NCBI GenBank assembly: GCA_022984795.1
Contig: JALIHJ010000011.1
Location: forward strand, 186,001-250,000
Origin: Fabrea salina
Taxonomy: Eukaryota; Ciliophora; Heterotrichea; Heterotrichida; Fabreidae
Length of the DNA: 64,000 nt
Reading direction: 5' to 3'
Shown one piece after another: positions 17,222 through 61,678 of the stretch; positions within the stretch are counted from its first letter, which is position 1, and each line of letters begins with the position of its first letter. The notes beneath the pieces are model-generated. The model was not told the origin of the DNA. It was given only the letters and a program-made list of their open reading frames with translations, and did not search any database. A program made the position numbers and the translations under genes.

Positions 17222-17822
17222 TTAACTACTAAAAGCAAACCCACTAGTTTCTCTTAAATTCTCCCCGAAAGCAAAGTACCTTGGGTTAGCGTTTTCAACA
17301 GTGTTGTTTGAAAGGTTGGTTTCGTTTGTATTCAACGTGCTTCTCGGGAACACTTTTAATTTCTTCACCAGTTTGAAGCCAAGCAACTTTTTTAACAGAG
17401 TAATAAGTCACGGATATAAGAATCATACTAGAAACCAGACAGATGCACAGCAAAATTCCACTGTAAATTTTGTCTTCGACACTCACATCTTCGTCTAGCA
17501 TGTTGATGAACAGAAAATACCCAATTAGGTACAAAACGCTTTGGAGAGCTAACAGTAAGACAGGCAAAGCAAACTGGTAGCAGTCAGAGTCACCTCTAAG
17601 ATTGCATTGGCAAGACCTTTTGTATTCGACTGCTATTGAAAACGGAGCATTGCAGATCTCACACTTGATGTTTTGCAAATCCTGCGATAAAAGAATCCAA
17701 GTCTTCAAACAGTCAGAATGGACATACCTAACTGATCCTGTGCAATTGCAAGGAGCTATTAAGTCATCTCCACTTTCAAAACAAATCCTGCAAGTAGCTT
17801 CGGTGCCTATTTTTAGTTTCAT
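17222..17822 (-). CDS. membrane RING-CH (MARCH-type) E3 ligase, two exons
   Basis: About 194 aa after removing a 16-nt intron (17353-17368). The N terminus is a RING-CH finger: CRICFESGDDLIAPCNC, then HSDCLKTW and CEIC. Two hydrophobic segments follow, as in MARCH ubiquitin ligases, which act on membrane proteins. Without the intron the frame stops at 17295; with it, the frame runs on through TVFPRSTL to a tail ending GFAFSS and a TAA at 17222-17224. The ATG at 17820-17822 is chosen because homology starts right after it; the frame is open further upstream. It faces the kinase gene across 77 bp. Confidence 0.8.
17353..17368 (-). other. 16-nt spliceosomal intron
   Basis: GTGAAGAAATTAAAAG. Removing it switches to a frame that continues for about 40 more codons to a TAA close to the neighbouring gene. 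Its sequence fits the GTAAG...TAG consensus less well than the 15-nt introns, so it needs cDNA support. Confidence 0.55.
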
Positions 17823-23880: not shown

Positions 23881-24570
23881 ATGAACCAAAATCAACTTAG
23901 AGACTTTGCTTACCACTACTACTTGCAGTGTGAACTAGACAGTAACCACAAACCCAAAAAAAGATTTAAAACTTCTAAGTGGACTATTTCTTTAAAAGAA
24001 CAACTTTTAGAACACTCAAACTTACTCAGTGAGAAACTAGGAAAGCCTCTAGAGGAACTAACAGTGGAAGACATTCAACCAGTTTCTAAGAACTTACGCA
24101 AGTTCCCTAAAGACTGTTTGCAGAAACTCCAAGAAGTAATGTCTACAGGGACTGTTAAAAACAACAACTGGCTCGAAACCGAAGACAAAATCGTTCTTCA
24201 GTTTCCTGGAGAAAAATGGGCCAAGATAGCTAATATCATTAACGAAACCTGCCACAAAGGCAAAAAAGTAAGGAACGGAAGAAGCGTAAAACAAAGGTGG
24301 TTCAACCACTTGAACCCAGAACTCAAGAAAGGACCCTGGACCCTAAATGAAGACATAAAGTTGATTAAACTGTACCTTAAGTTTGGGAAAGCTTGGCATA
24401 ACTACACCGAGGAAGTAAAGAACCGCAGCAGAAGCTCAATAATCAGTCGAGTAGGTAGTTTGGAGAGTTCTGCAAGAAGCAAAGTAACGCCTGAAGAAGA
24501 TGAAACAAGTCTTTTTTTGGCCTTGCTTAAAGATAAACAGGAAGAGCTAAAAGCTTTAAGCACTGGGTGA
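23881..24570 (+). CDS. Myb/SANT-like DNA-binding protein
   Basis: A 229-aa protein with two Myb-type helices in tandem: NNWLETEDKIVLQFPGEKWAKIANII (about 99-125, followed by RSVKQRWFNHLNPELKKG) and GPWTLNEDIKLIKLYLKFGKAWHNYTEEV (about 151-180), then KNRSRSSIISRV. The pattern of spaced Trp and the RW.NHLNP link are those of R2R3 Myb repeats, which bind DNA. Target genes are unknown. The frame ends in TGA, and the last 15 bp overlap the 3' end of the convergent gene. Confidence 0.8.
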   Translation: MNQNQLRDFAYHYYLQCELDSNHKPKKRFKTSKWTISLKEQLLEHSNLLSEKLGKPLEELTVEDIQPVSKNLRKFPKDCLQKLQEVMSTGTVKNNNWLETEDKIVLQFPGEKWAKIANIINETCHKGKKVRNGRSVKQRWFNHLNPELKKGPWTLNEDIKLIKLYLKFGKAWHNYTEEVKNRSRSSIISRVGSLESSARSKVTPEEDETSLFLALLKDKQEELKALSTG

Positions 24571-32496: not shown

Positions 32497-33588
32497 TCAA
32501 CCTTTGGTTGAGGCAAACCTAGACCTAACTATCTTTGAAATCTCAGAAGCCAAAATGCTTTCTAAAGCAACGTTCAGCCCAAGTTCTTTAATCATTTCTG
32601 TGGCTACGCTGTTGGGTGTGTCTGAGTCAAAATAAAAGTTGAACTTGATCAGTTGGGGATTCCCCAGTAAGTCTTGAACGTTCATGCTGATTTCTATTGA
32701 CTCAGAAGTTGTTGGGTCTACTTGTTTATTTTGGGGTTGTTTGTCCAGACAAATAGGCTCTTTGTCTAGGTGGTGACTGGTGTTTAAAAAGGGTTCCTGC
32801 AGTAACTGGTAAGCAGTGGGTCTGGTTTCCTTTGGACTTAAAGTTTTTAAAAGGAATCTATGTATTTCTAGGTCGCCAACTTGATCAAGGCAACTTGGAG
32901 GCATCCCTTCGATTATTTTTCTGTACACACTTGCAGTTGTTCCGCACTCAGAATAAGGAGTTTCCATAGTGCACATTTCTAACAAGCACATTCCAAAGGC
33001 GTAAATGTCTACTTCTTTTCCATAGTTTTCATCGTACATCTCAGGAGCCATGAAGCAGGGCGTCCCTGCAAAAGAACTTGAGTGCGAAGTCATAAGGACT
33101 GTAGACAGCCCCAAGTCCCCAATTCTAGCTTTGCCAGTTGAGGAGTCAATGAACACGTTCTCAGTTTTAATGTCTCTGTGGATAATGGGGGGACTTTGTG
33201 TGTGCAAGTAGTGCAAACCTGAAAGAATGTCTCTGCACCAGTTCTTAACTACACACCTCCGAGGAGCGTGAATTCTGTGCAAGTAAGATTTAAGGTCTCC
33301 TCCTGAAAGTAGTTCTGTAATAAATACTAAATGGTGCCTTCCTGAGACCCAAGCTCCTCGGCACTGAATTATGTTAGGGTGCTTGAGTTGCTTTATAAGT
33401 GTAATTTCCTTTTGGAGCGAAGTTAGTTCTTTTTCTGATAAAGTTTGCAAGTTAATTGCGTTCCAAGCTACTTCACAACCTTGCTCTCTGTCCTGGCCTT
33501 TATAAACTACTTTTTGAGAACCTGAGCCTATTACTTCATTTGACCTTACAAACCTTCCGCGTGGGGACTTTTCCACTACTGACTTCAT
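32497..33588 (-). CDS. WNK-type kinase
   Basis: A 363-aa kinase. The usual catalytic Lys of beta-strand 3 is replaced (VAWNAI), and the Lys sits in the glycine loop (GSGSQKVVYKG), the defining mark of WNK (with no lysine) kinases. HRDIKTENVFI, GDLGLS and APEMYDE complete the active site, so it should be active. After the kinase domain (about 18-275) comes one fold starting KFNFYFDSDTPNSVATEMIKELGL, which fits the autoinhibitory PF2-like domain of WNKs. In animals WNKs sense chloride and volume. Its ATG is only 8 bp from that of the divergent ankyrin gene. Confidence 0.9.
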   Translation of the reverse strand: MKSVVEKSPRGRFVRSNEVIGSGSQKVVYKGQDREQGCEVAWNAINLQTLSEKELTSLQKEITLIKQLKHPNIIQCRGAWVSGRHHLVFITELLSGGDLKSYLHRIHAPRRCVVKNWCRDILSGLHYLHTQSPPIIHRDIKTENVFIDSSTGKARIGDLGLSTVLMTSHSSSFAGTPCFMAPEMYDENYGKEVDIYAFGMCLLEMCTMETPYSECGTTASVYRKIIEGMPPSCLDQVGDLEIHRFLLKTLSPKETRPTAYQLLQEPFLNTSHHLDKEPICLDKQPQNKQVDPTTSESIEISMNVQDLLGNPQLIKFNFYFDSDTPNSVATEMIKELGLNVALESILASEISKIVRSRFASTKG

Positions 33589-36659: not shown

Positions 36660-39600
36660 TTAATTGTAAAGTTTTCTGCTTCTTAGTTGTTCGTCAGCTG
36701 AATTCTTGCACAAAGCTCTGCGCTCAACTATACTGCGTCCTTCTAAGAACTGAGTTTTGAACAGCACGTTGGCGTTAGTAAACATTCCTTCTTTCAAACT
36801 CACTACAATAAACTGGGACTCCGAAAAGTGCTCTTTAACCATCTTGCCAATGTTTTGAGTGTGCGATATGTCCAAAGCAGCGTCTATTTCGTCCAAAATG
36901 TAAATAGGAGCTGGCTTGTACTTAAGTAAAGACAAAATAAAAGACAGAGCTAGCAAACTGCGTTGGCCTCCACTTAGTTCACTTAAGTTAGTTTTCCAAA
37001 CATTTCCAAAAGCTACTTTAAGTTCCAAGCCTACAAGGGAGTTGTCTTCTTTGTGGTAAACAGGTCCTAAAGCAGCAGTGGCTCCTGGAAGTATTGACTG
37101 GAAGATTCTTTGTAAGTTAAGGTCCACAGCTTCCCAAGTGTTGATGATGCACTCTTGCTTTTTGGAGTCGAGTTCTTGAATGACTTCTTGGAGTTTGTTT
37201 TTGTCACTTAGCACTATGGACCTTTTTCTCCACTAGTTCAGTGTACCTTTGTTCTTGGTCGTCAAGAGTGGACATTACTTTGGTGTTGATGCGTTTTTTT
37301 TCTTGGTCACATTCGTACTTGAGTTTGTCTAGTTTTTGTTTTTCGAGTTCAGTGTCTATGTCTGGGATTTCCATTTCAGCTTCCAGAATCCATTTGTTTT
37401 CTTCTATGATTTTTTTGGAGTCTTCTTTGGCCTTTTTGGAGTCTTCTTTCATGTGTTTGAGCTTTCTTTCTAAGTCTTCAATTTCTTTTTTGGTGTGTTT
37501 TAAGTATTCGTACTGTTTGGAGATTTCTTCTTTGATTTCTTTGAGTTTTTGGTGGTTTCTGTTTTCTTCTTCTCTCAAAGTTTCGTACTCGTTTTTCTTT
37601 TCTTGGTAAACAGAGTCCTTTGCTTTAATAGACTCTTTTAAGTTCTGGATTTCGTGCTCGAGTTTCTGGACGTTTTGTTTGTTCTGTGAAAAGTCTTCAC
37701 TTAAGTTGTTGGTAGTTTCTTCTAAGCTTGAAAGTTTGACTTTGGATTCTTCAAGTTGTTGTTTGAGGGTTTTGAGTTCTTGGGTTATGCAATTGTACTC
37801 TTCTTGGGTTTTGTTTAAGGCTTTTGAAAGGCTTTCTTTAGAGTTGCTTTTTGGCTCGGCTTGGATGTTCCTGAGGTCTTCTTCTATAGCCTGATAGCTT
37901 CTCTGGTACTCTTCGAGTTGGATATTGAGGTTTTCTAGTTCGTTTTCTAGCTGGTTGATTTCTTCACTGAGTCTTTGAGCATTTCCTTCCCTTAAAAAGG
38001 ACTCTTTGGCTTTAAGGGTTTGGGCTTTGATTTGGAGTTCGTTTTGCATTTCCATGAGTTTTCGGTCAGTTTCCCTGTAAGCTTCGAGTTCTTTAGAGAG
38101 TTTTCTATGGTTTTCTTTTAAGCTTTCGTATCTGTTTTGAATTTCAACTAGTTTTTTGTAGAGTTCAAGGTAGCTTTGGCTTTGTCTAGAAGCTCCTCCT
38201 GAAATAACTCCTGAAGGGTCGTAGACATCTCCCTCTAGAGTTATGGCTTTTTGTTTGAACTCGTAAGCTACTCTTTTAGCTATTTCAGTGTTTTCGCATA
38301 CGTAAAATCCTCCGAAAACGTACCCAACTGAGTTGTAGAACTCTGACTGGTACTCTATTAAGTCAAGGCCTCTAAAGACTCTGTCTCCGTAAGTCTGTTT
38401 AATTCTCATTTCAATGTTAGGGTTCACTTCAAAAGGTTTCATCCGGTTGTTAGCAAAGATCCTTACATTTCCAAAAGTTTTCCTTTTAAGAAGCAGTTGG
38501 CCAGTAGTGTCAGTGTCAACTACAAGCCCAAAAAGACCTGAACCAGCTCCTACGTCTAAAGCTTTGGAGTACTTAAAGTCTTTCACTTTTATCAAGTGAA
38601 TTATTCTGCCTTTGACTTTGGATCGGTTAAAGTTGGGTTCGGGGTCTTGGTAAGACAACTTGAACCTGGAGTACTCAGGGTCCCTTAGTTGTCTTTCTAA
38701 GTCTTGAATTTCAGTTTGGATGTTTCTAATTTGTGTCCCAAGTGTGCTTTTTTGAGGGTTTGCTTGTTGGCCTTCTTGTATAGAGCGGTCTAAGGCTGAG
38801 ATTTCTTGTTTGAGCTTTTCCACAGCTTGTTCTTCGTTCACAGAAGAACTTTTGGCTTCTTCGAGTTTTTTTAGTTTTGAAGAAAGGAACTCGTTGGTGT
38901 TTTTGATCTTTTTTTGCAAGCTTTGGATTTCTTGTTTGGTTTTAGAGAGTTCTCTTTGTTTGGAGTTAACTATGCTTTCAGTGAAGTTTTCAGTTTCTAT
39001 TCCTTGTTCAAGTGCCTGCAGAGAGGTTTTTAAGTTCTCTAGCTGAGATGACTTTTCTGAAACTTGTTGCTCTTTTCTTTGTTTGTTGGACTCTAAGTAC
39101 TGGATTCTTTGAGTGAGTCTTTTTTGGTTGGTGGAGTTTTCGAGTAGTTCTTTTTCTTGGGTTTGTATTTCTTGAGTGGTTTCTTTGAGTTCTTTTTGTT
39201 TGCTGTCTAGGTTAGCTTTTTCTTGGTTTATTTCGTTTTTGGCTTTTTCTAGTTCTTCATTGAGTTTGCTAGAAGTGTCACTAGTGCCTAAGGTTTCGGC
39301 CTCTTGTTTTTTGAGTTCTTCTAGTTTTTCGTGGGTTTTTTCTTTTTTCTCTTCAGCTTTTTTAAGTTGTTTTAGGTAGTCCTCAGTGATGTCTTCGTTT
39401 TGCTGGCATTTTTCTAAGCAGTTGTAGTACTCAACTATGAGTAGTTTCTTCTCTAGTTCTTCAGTTTCGTCCTTTTTGCTTTTCCAGATCAAGTAGTCTT
39501 CTTTTTCTTTTTGGAGTCTTTCTAGCATGGGGTTAACGTCTTCATTCAGGATCTTGTCAATCTCAGCTAGCTTAAGGTCTTTTTTCTGCATAAGGTTCTC

Positions 39601-59879: not shown

Positions 59880-60896
59880 TTAAAACTTAGACAGGGTAAC
59901 TAGCACACCTGTGAGGTTGTCGCAAGACCCCTGGAGAGCTGCTTCGAAGATAACTTTTTCTACAGATCTTTTGGGGTGGTTCTCTGAAATCATGTTTTTT
60001 AAGTCTTCGTTGCTCAAGAAGTCATAGATTCCGTCGCAGCCCAAAAACAAGTATCTGTCTTCAGCTGAAACGTTGAAGCTTTTAACTTCAGGAACAGCTG
60101 AAACCACTCCAGGAATGCCTCCAAATTCCACTAGTTTAGCGTCTATATCTCCAATAGCTCTGCTGACAGAAAGCTTACCAGGAAGCACCCTTAGAGGCCC
60201 GAGAGGTTCTTGTCTATTGCCTGCTTGGTAAAGTGTTCCTCCAAAAGCTTGGATTCTGTGTTGTTCTTTTTTGTTGGATGGTTTGTGGTCCCATGTAAGA
60301 GGGTACACACAATCCCCTGTGCAAAGAATAGCCCTTGAGTCCCCCAAGTTGGCAACATAGCACATTTCTTCCACAAACAAAGCTACCAAAGCACAACTTC
60401 CAGACCTGTCGCGAGTTTCTTTGGCAAGTAGCGTGAAGTCGTGCTCTGCTTTTTGGAAGGCCGAAGTAATGGCTTCTTGAGGGCATTCAATGAAGCTAGG
60501 GTTTTGGAATATGTAGTGGTGCAGTTTTTCTTTGAGGAACTCAGAGCAAGTAGGCCCTGCATGTCCGTCGTATACTCCGAAAAAAGAAACCTTAGGCCAC
60601 TTTCCTTCAAAAGAGTCAGGTTTTCTAACATTGAGTGAAATAGTGACTCTGTCCTCGTTCAATGACTTGAACTTTCCTTTGTTGGTGTGTGCGGCGTAAG
60701 CCTTTATGACTCCATAGCTGGTCTTAGACACCTTAGTAGGAACTCCCCTTTTGACCATACTTAGTAGTTTCCTTTCATAGAACTCAGGGAAGCTTTTTTG
60801 GGCTTTGTCAGTAGTAATCTTAGTGGCAACTTTTCCGTCAAACGAGTTAAACTTTGCAATTGGTAGTATTTTTCTGTTATTTCTGGAATAATTCAT
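59880..60896 (-). CDS. PP2C-type Ser/Thr phosphatase
   Basis: A 338-aa metal-dependent phosphatase (PPM family). Motifs: NEDRV, FFGVYDGHAGP with metal-binding Asp and Gly, GSCALVALF, NLGDSRAIL, LSVSRAIGDID, FLFLGCDGIYDF-like LGCDGIYD and CDNLTGVLV with the last metal Asp. All metal ligands are kept, so it should be active. The 75-residue basic N terminus holds no clear signal. ATG at 60894-60896 is chosen; the frame continues upstream but into the divergent selenoprotein gene 26 bp away. Confidence 0.92.
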   Translation of the reverse strand: MNYSRNNRKILPIAKFNSFDGKVATKITTDKAQKSFPEFYERKLLSMVKRGVPTKVSKTSYGVIKAYAAHTNKGKFKSLNEDRVTISLNVRKPDSFEGKWPKVSFFGVYDGHAGPTCSEFLKEKLHHYIFQNPSFIECPQEAITSAFQKAEHDFTLLAKETRDRSGSCALVALFVEEMCYVANLGDSRAILCTGDCVYPLTWDHKPSNKKEQHRIQAFGGTLYQAGNRQEPLGPLRVLPGKLSVSRAIGDIDAKLVEFGGIPGVVSAVPEVKSFNVSAEDRYLFLGCDGIYDFLSNEDLKNMISENHPKRSVEKVIFEAALQGSCDNLTGVLVTLSKF

Positions 60897-60922: not shown

Positions 60923-61183
60923 ATGGAGGGGAAGAAAGCAAAAGTTTACATCTGCGGAAGGTGAGGATTTTCATCCAAGAAGCAGAAGCTAGAAACGGCC
61001 TTGGCTGAGCTGCTTCCTACTGCTAAAGATGCAGTGGAGATCCTTCCTGGAGAGTTACAACAACTTAAAGTCGAGTTCGAAAACCAAGGAAACACTCAAG
61101 TCCTTCATGAAAAGGTAGGACAAGGTTTCTGGTCCGACGAATCTCCTAGTCAGATCTGCCAGCTTTTAAGCCAACACTTTTAA
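60923..61183 (+). CDS. selenoprotein W-like (Rdx family) with in-frame UGA
   Basis: ATG at 60923 reads MEGKKAKVYICGR, then TGA at 60962-60964, and the same frame continues without another stop to TAA at 61181-61183. Read with selenocysteine, it gives 86 aa (human SELENOW has 87). C-G-R-U followed by GFSSKKQKLE matches the family's CxxU redox motif and the helix after it; LKVEFENQGNTQVLHEKVGQGFW matches the family strands FEVxVxGKLxHSKxxGDGF. Rdx proteins are small thioredoxin-fold redox proteins. A SECIS-like hairpin follows the stop. A 15-16 nt intron cannot remove this TGA: every GT-AG option leaves a stop. Confidence 0.83.
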
Positions 61184-61189
61184 ACCACA

Positions 61190-61235
61190 GAGTCATGTGA
61201 AGGTGTTACCTAAACTAGGGTGCCACTGGAGACTT
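61190..61235 (+). promoter_or_regulatory. SECIS-like element in the 3' UTR
   Basis: Just after the selenoprotein stop. A UGAA at 61198-61201 can face GGAG at 61228-61231, the non-Watson-Crick quartet (tandem G-A pairs) of eukaryotic SECIS. Between them a stem of about nine pairs with one mismatch (GGTGTTACCT with AGGGTGCCACT) closes a loop starting AAA at 61212-61214, the expected apical adenines. The lower helix is short (GAGT with ACTT). Fold drawn by hand; energy not computed. Confidence 0.6.
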
Positions 61236-61237
61236 AA

Positions 61238-61678
61238 CTAACCATTTAAATACCAAGGAGTGACTGGGTTTCTCTCTAGTTCTTTTTTGACTTCTTCGAG
61301 TTCGGAGTCTAGTTCTGACTCTTCGCAGTTTACACTGTAGTCACTAAGTCTAGCCTGGACTTGTTTAATTTGGCTTATAGTTTTTTGAGTTTCTTCAAAA
61401 ATGAGTTTGGGGTCTTCTTTTTCCATTTGCTCTTCAACTTCAAAAGACTCCTTTAAAACTTGGTTAACTTTAGCATTGAAACTCAAACTCTCCCTTTCAA
61501 ACTGACTTCTGACTAGCTCGTCTATGCTTTTTTCGTAGTTAAGTCTTTCGTTATAAACTTTTTCAAGTTTTCTCTCAAAACTTTCAGGTTTTAGTTCCCT
61601 GAGTTGTTCGATTTGTTTGTCGCACTCTTTTATTTTTGCTTGTAAGTCTGAAATTTCTTTCTCTTGACCAGTTATCAT
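61238..61678 (-). CDS. small coiled-coil protein
   Basis: A 146-aa acidic protein, almost all coiled coil (KEISDLQAKIKECDKQIEQL onward), ending in a short Pro/Trp tail (NPVTPWYLNG). No family recognised. Its ATG overlaps the stop of the upstream gene by one base (TAATG). Confidence 0.7.
   Translation of the reverse strand: MITGQEKEISDLQAKIKECDKQIEQLRELKPESFERKLEKVYNERLNYEKSIDELVRSQFERESLSFNAKVNQVLKESFEVEEQMEKEDPKLIFEETQKTISQIKQVQARLSDYSVNCEESELDSELEEVKKELERNPVTPWYLNG

Follow-up and report, generated by a model that had tools for sequence, protein, structure and literature searches.

We analysed a 64,000-nt stretch of contig JALIHJ010000011.1 of the heterotrich ciliate Fabrea salina (the window hereafter), in which an earlier note had proposed a gene similar to selenoprotein W (SelW), with an in-frame UGA and an adjacent hairpin resembling a selenocysteine insertion sequence (SECIS). 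The predicted features of the gene and of the hairpin are as follows:

60923..61183, forward strand, SelW/Rdx-like selenoprotein coding sequence, 86 codons plus TAA
60953..60964, forward strand, CGRU redox motif, residues 11–14 of the translation
60962..60964, forward strand, in-frame UGA as selenocysteine (Sec), codon 14, next base G
61181..61183, forward strand, TAA termination codon of the SelW-like gene
61190..61235, forward strand, compact SECIS element, 46 nt, beginning 6 nt after the TAA
61190–61194/61231–61235, forward strand, SECIS helix I, five pairs
61197–61200, forward strand, SECIS GUGA
61202–61210/61219–61227, forward strand, SECIS helix II, one mismatch
61212–61214, forward strand, SECIS AAA in the apical loop
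61228–61231, forward strand, SECIS GGAG

Translation of this region agreed with the earlier note in coordinates and frame: one frame of 86 codons runs from the ATG at 60923 to the TAA at 61183, and its sole interruption is the TGA at 60962–60964, within the CGRU motif. The translation reads MEGKKAKVYICGRUGFSSKKQK...QLLSQHF, and the frame remains open for a further 72 codons past the TGA. As in eukaryotic selenoprotein genes, the in-frame UGA occupies a catalytic position inside a conserved frame. One database protein (P0002) is 97% identical to the SelW-like protein, keeping the full frame through the Sec codon and differing at two other residues, and another (P0003) is 93% identical to a second SelW-like protein of the same genome (described below), again with the frame kept through the Sec codon. 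Protein searches gave one such near-identical relative for each SelW-like gene and no distant ones, PDB sequence searches found no SelW, and searches of viral_contigs and genome_contigs found no relative.

The hairpin with a quartet and an AAA loop, which the earlier note had placed downstream, is present, with GUGA/GGAG as its core. It shares with the eukaryotic type I SECIS a GA/GA quartet at the base of helix II and an unpaired AA(A) in an open apical loop, 11 nt past the GUGA, as well as the position after the stop codon and the presence of an SBP2 relative in the genome; it differs in its length of 46 nt, its helix I of five pairs, its start 6 nt past the stop and its failure to be seen by Rfam SECIS_1. 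Considered singly, the hairpin gave no signal: its fold z-score was 0.09, with 99 of 200 shuffles equally stable, so that its stability is no better than chance, and Rfam SECIS_1 found nothing useful at gathering and permissive thresholds, with no match over the gathering score in the window or the genome, which for a model of 64 positions is a detection limit and not a biological feature. The hairpin was therefore tested by comparison within the genome. A covariance model built only from the 3′ elements of four GPx genes, with the SelW-like hairpin left out, matched 61188–61239 at 39.6 bits (E 9.8e-8 in the 64-kb window, E-values of such models being rough), and the next best of the five window matches at E ≤10 reached 12.9 bits (E 1).

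Alignment of the 3′ ends of the SelW-like gene, SPS2 and the four Sec-GPx genes revealed a common element, consisting of a five-pair helix I, GUGA, 11 nt, AAA, 14 nt (16 in SPS2) and GAG. Over these six elements, pairing was seen in 50 of 54 cells of helix II and in all 30 of helix I (two SPS2 loop bases left out), and permutation of the 3′ halves matched the observed pairing in 1 of 720 cases for helix II and in 24 of 720 for helix I. With four elements found later, helix II was paired in 86 of 90 cells and helix I in 47 of 50; none of 5000 permutations matched, and slid registers reached at most 44 and 26, respectively. Since helix II was the selection criterion for the four later elements, only helix I is independent there, and it was paired in 17 of 20 cells (2 of 24 permutations matching), with all three misses in the element of locus L090, which folds in a shifted register. 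The position just after the stop, the conserved core and the covarying helices are those that a SECIS in the 3′ untranslated region (UTR) would be expected to show.

The genome searched was the 18.33-Mb assembly (G000; 103 contigs, window included). The pattern AAGTGA-N11-AAA-N14-GA occurred at 56 places, compared with 63 for the reversed control, and pairing in helix II was bimodal over these places: seven had 9/9 pairs and the other 49 had ≤6, while mismated halves reached 9 in 0.2% of cases. Of the seven, three belong to the GPx genes already known (the remaining GPx element has 6 pairs), and the other four are new and lie behind UGA frames. The related patterns were likewise not enriched over their reversed controls, with GTGA-N11-AAA-N14-GAG at 91 versus 89, GTGA-N11-AAA-N14..16-GAG at 230 versus 270 and AAGTGA-N11-AAA-N14..16-GA at 141 versus 173; only the pairing and the upstream frames set the elements apart. 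Scoring of 66 places for GTGA-N11-AAA-N14-GAG gave no new element, but the same seven with 9/9, the SelW-like gene with 8 and a contig-end repeat with 7. Among the matches listed for AAGTGA-N11-AAA-N14..16-GA, which reach as far as contig C54, 42 had longer spacing, and only a SelM element was paired 9/9. Among those listed for GTGA-N11-AAA-N14..16-GAG, nine longer-spaced ones were folded, and none was convincing. A five-element model (SelW-like plus the four GPx), run on 89 loci (270,942 bases), gave 14 matches below E 0.01: nine for the four GPx elements in overlapping loci, four for the new elements (partial for L090) and one for locus L003. The GPx-only model recovered the same five non-GPx elements, and the SPS2 element was missed by both models. 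Two weaker matches of the five-element model, L019 and L039, lacked a convincing UGA frame. In total, at least 11 UGA genes with the same kind of element were identified, as a lower bound. Those beyond SPS2, GPx and the SelW-like gene of the window are predicted as follows:

L089, second SelW-like gene, CGGU at the same position as CGRU, 25% identical to the first SelW-like protein
L087, SelS-like, 133 residues, one hydrophobic stretch, C-terminus PSGUSR
L088, contig C37, 917–1063, forward strand, 48 codons, UGA at codon 3 and the penultimate codon, tail EEPCQKSKUQ, SECIS of the same type
L090, contig C19, 961–1098, forward strand, 45 codons, UGA at codon 3 and the penultimate codon, tail EESCRGGGUS, SECIS of the same type
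L003, contig C54, 399–689, reverse strand, SelM-type UGA gene, CSGU protein, Pfam Sep15_SelM 6.9e-17, SECIS at 343–392

The protein of L087 has no Pfam match, and we take it to be SelS-like from its architecture. Both L088 and L090 have a hydrophobic start and the tail EE[PS]Cx4Ux; a homologue search with the L090 protein found none, and it is the SECIS, the common tail and the spacing that argue for the two being real genes. Locus L003 had been fetched for a tRNA-Ser, and helix I of its SelM element pairs with a one-base shift from the register of the others. The genome has six GPx matches: four with one TGA, one full-length paralogue (L025) with Cys at that position and one weak partial match. 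The Cys-containing L025 has no match to the hairpin models, and the next ATG lies 12 nt past its stop. Contig C59 carries three consecutive Sec-GPx genes; in one of these (L023), which is possibly decaying, Arg instead of Gly directly follows the UGA (ASEURYTE) and helix II is the weakest, with 6/9 pairs.

The machinery for Sec was found in the same assembly, in support of the claim that a working Sec system is implied. A tRNA-Sec with the anticodon TCA (UCA in RNA) scored 74.7 bits and was also called by ARAGORN; the model gave 13 matches, and the one other above the cut-off was a tRNA-Ser. SepSecS was detected at E 1.6e-128 (4.8e-132 to a solved SepSecS), as was SelD/SPS2, which itself has one in-frame TGA. 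An elongation factor, closest among solved proteins to eEFSec (3e-122), fell under the cut-off of the selB model, and one of eight L7Ae-domain matches, a 290-codon frame, had SBP2 as its best solved relative (1.5e-24). The components named for this check were found, SBP2 as a relative, and the possibility that the genome lacks Sec machinery, which would have counted against the gene, was decided in its favour. Because of this machinery, and because at least ten further such genes are each followed by the same kind of hairpin at a constant distance, the UGA at 60962–60964 almost certainly encodes Sec, as the earlier note had proposed, and is not a stop.

We next consider how UGA is otherwise used. 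In the 52 open reading frames (ORFs) of ≥100 codons in the window, with overlapping shorter ones removed, the stops were TAA in 41, TAG in seven and TGA in four, in agreement with the claim that TGA ends normal genes nearby. The four TGA-ended ORFs stop at:

17295–17297, reverse strand
24568–24570, forward strand
32497–32499, reverse strand
37204–37206, reverse strand

In three of these four, TAA or TAG follows in frame within four codons. UGA is no general sense codon in the window, but a rare stop. A genome-wide use of UGA for Trp, as in Blepharisma stoltei, which reassigns UGA to Trp (PMC9942806), would make residue 14 a plain Trp, and the two database relatives are predicted with W there. 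However, some other genetic codes translate TGA as W, and the relatives are known as protein predictions alone; because of this W at the Sec position, mistranslation in the source databases is probable for both public predictions. When only TAA and TAG are taken as stops, no TGA occurs in 48 of the 52 ORFs, and the other four have one each, at 2, 2, 4 and 28 codons ahead of the stop that follows; TGG occurs 167 times in 19,190 codons. Moreover, in GPx, SPS2, SelM and the SelW-like genes, the UGA occupies the Sec/Cys position of the respective family, as seen for GPx against L025. A Trp codon at this site is accordingly highly improbable. Equally improbable is a real stop or an assembly error, leaving a pseudogene or a 13-residue peptide: TGA does end 4 of the 52 long ORFs, but the frame is open for 72 codons past it, it is open as well in a relative that differs at two other residues, and a TGA with the same kind of downstream element is common to eleven genes.

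An intron might also remove the TGA, and GT–AG pairs that keep the frame do exist at lengths of ≥36 nt. All of these, however, start at 60944 and delete ICGRU, and none is of 15–16 nt, the predominant intron size reported for Blepharisma (PMC9942806). Pairs starting at 60961 break the frame, and among GT–AG introns of 10–120 nt, none removes the TGA while keeping both the frame and the redox motif. We regard such an intron as barely conceivable. The same machinery would also serve if the element recoded UGA with insertion mainly of Cys by the thiophosphate route. Such insertion is known for mammals at low selenium. Here, the SPS2 gene contains a UGA of its own, and L025, the GPx paralogue, has a normal Cys codon and no hairpin, which suggests, if indirectly, that the UGA sites are kept for Sec; insertion mainly of Cys appears very unlikely.

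The assignment to the SelW family is supported by the motif, the size and the predicted fold. The secondary structure prediction placed a strand at residues 6–10, the CGRU motif at 11–14 and a helix at 16–30, that is, CxxU near the N-terminus after the first strand as in SelW/Rdx (PF10262), and the predicted order, E-H-E-E-E-H, is the thioredoxin-like order of this family. SelW-related proteins were among the nearest folds. The weak point is the distance of the sequence from the family profiles: the best Pfam match, Rdx, scored 16 bits (curated cut-off 22.6) and TIGR02174 scored 15.1 (curated cut-off 34.2), these being detection limits and not biological features.

Taken together, these results favour a working selenoprotein gene with SECIS-dependent insertion of Sec at the UGA at 60962–60964, to which we assign a probability of about 0.94. 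Computation showed directly the reading frame, the hairpin with its covariation among the UGA genes, the genes of the machinery and the lack of general sense use of UGA in the window. From these we infer transcription through the hairpin, protein binding, actual Sec insertion and redox activity. The mRNA would extend at least to 61235, and the stretch after the stop would fold into the 46-nt SECIS. A SBP2-type L7Ae protein would bind the GUGA/GGAG kink-turn core and recruit eEFSec with Sec-tRNA(UCA), so that the ribosome at the UGA would insert Sec, giving an 86-residue thioredoxin-like CGRU redox protein, while UGA in genes without the hairpin would end translation. The 13-nt spacer may keep the SECIS core just outside the terminating ribosome, the footprint of which reaches 11–12 nt past the stop in Condylostoma (PMC4967479).

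The distance of the core from the codons was nearly constant. From the stop to the GUGA it was 13 nt in the SelW-like gene, 13 nt in each of the four GPx genes, 12 nt in SPS2, 13 nt in the second SelW-like gene and 13 nt in SelM, that is, 12–13 nt in all eight genes with an internal UGA. Where the UGA is C-terminal and precedes the stop by two or three codons, as in three genes, the distance from the stop was larger (SelS-like 24, L088 27 and L090 26 nt), and that from the UGA to the GUGA was 33, 33 and 32 nt, respectively. This differs from mammalian Dio1, from which a minimum UGA–SECIS distance of 51–111 nt was derived (PMC3316567, section 14). Since heterotrich 3′ UTRs have medians of 21–23 nt (PMC4967479), room for a SECIS is scarce. 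The core may lie immediately beyond the terminating ribosome, by which helix I would be opened but the SBP2 site left, and about 32 nt may be the shortest spacing that keeps the entire element clear of a ribosome whose A site holds the UGA. As a tentative proposal, which we hold at somewhat less than even odds, two rulers would apply: the core would lie 12–13 nt past the stop, at the leading edge of the terminating ribosome, and never less than 32–33 nt past the Sec UGA, a true decoding minimum well below the mammalian 51–111 nt; the same proposal includes what may be a new family of membrane selenoproteins of 45–48 residues, in which Sec occupies residue 3 and the last position but one (tail EE[PS]Cx4Ux).

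Sec in heterotrichs, and a Sec UGA very close to the SECIS, are already published for Condylostoma (PMC4967479). Swart et al. noted there that the thioredoxin reductases of Condylostoma magnum and Parduczia, with a Sec UGA shortly before the SECIS, break the Dio1 minimum, and hence a short UGA–SECIS distance as such is not new; C. magnum also has a tRNA-Sec(UCA). In contrast to F. salina, where UGA is stop or Sec only, UGA is also a Trp codon in those species, and the portion of that paper available gives no fixed spacing over several genes. Our literature searches, largely at the depth of abstract listings, turned up no earlier report of constant SECIS spacings. Stentor coeruleus is another heterotrich with a tRNA-Sec and few UGA stops (9%) (cited in PMC6879139), the available part of which differs in naming no selenoprotein genes or SECIS. 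A search for literature on F. salina and selenocysteine found one paper (PMC10553269), which, in the part available, gives the canonical code for F. salina and deals with Sec in another ciliate only.

The description of the source as a standard-code heterotrich is consistent with TGA as a rare stop and with the contig ends. Of four fetched ends, three contig starts consist almost throughout of CCCTAACA repeats, as reported for Blepharisma (PMC9942806); the fourth, the end of the window contig, carries a degenerate form. Many contigs also have, a few kb from their ends, a repeat containing GTGAAAGGTTCCAAGAAACTTTTAGCAACCTTGAG, which is probably subtelomeric. The neighbours of the SelW-like gene are:

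59880..60896, reverse strand, divergent protein phosphatase 2C (PP2C) gene, PF00481 E 6.9e-48, the start codon at 60896 being a chosen, likely ATG
61238..61678, reverse strand, convergent ORF, stop codon 2 nt beyond the SECIS

The convergent ORF has no Pfam match at E 0.01. The gap from the SelW-like stop to its end at 61238 is 54 nt, of which the hairpin occupies 46 nt.

These results point to a coherent set of at least 11 UGA genes with one kind of SECIS in an apparent standard-code heterotrich whose genes lie a few bases apart, and a GPx-derived hairpin model finds such elements where the Rfam model fails. Because the spacings are constant, how close a SECIS may lie to a UGA or to a stop codon becomes directly testable, and the spacing rule, together with the two tiny genes with two UGAs each, are the parts most worth following.
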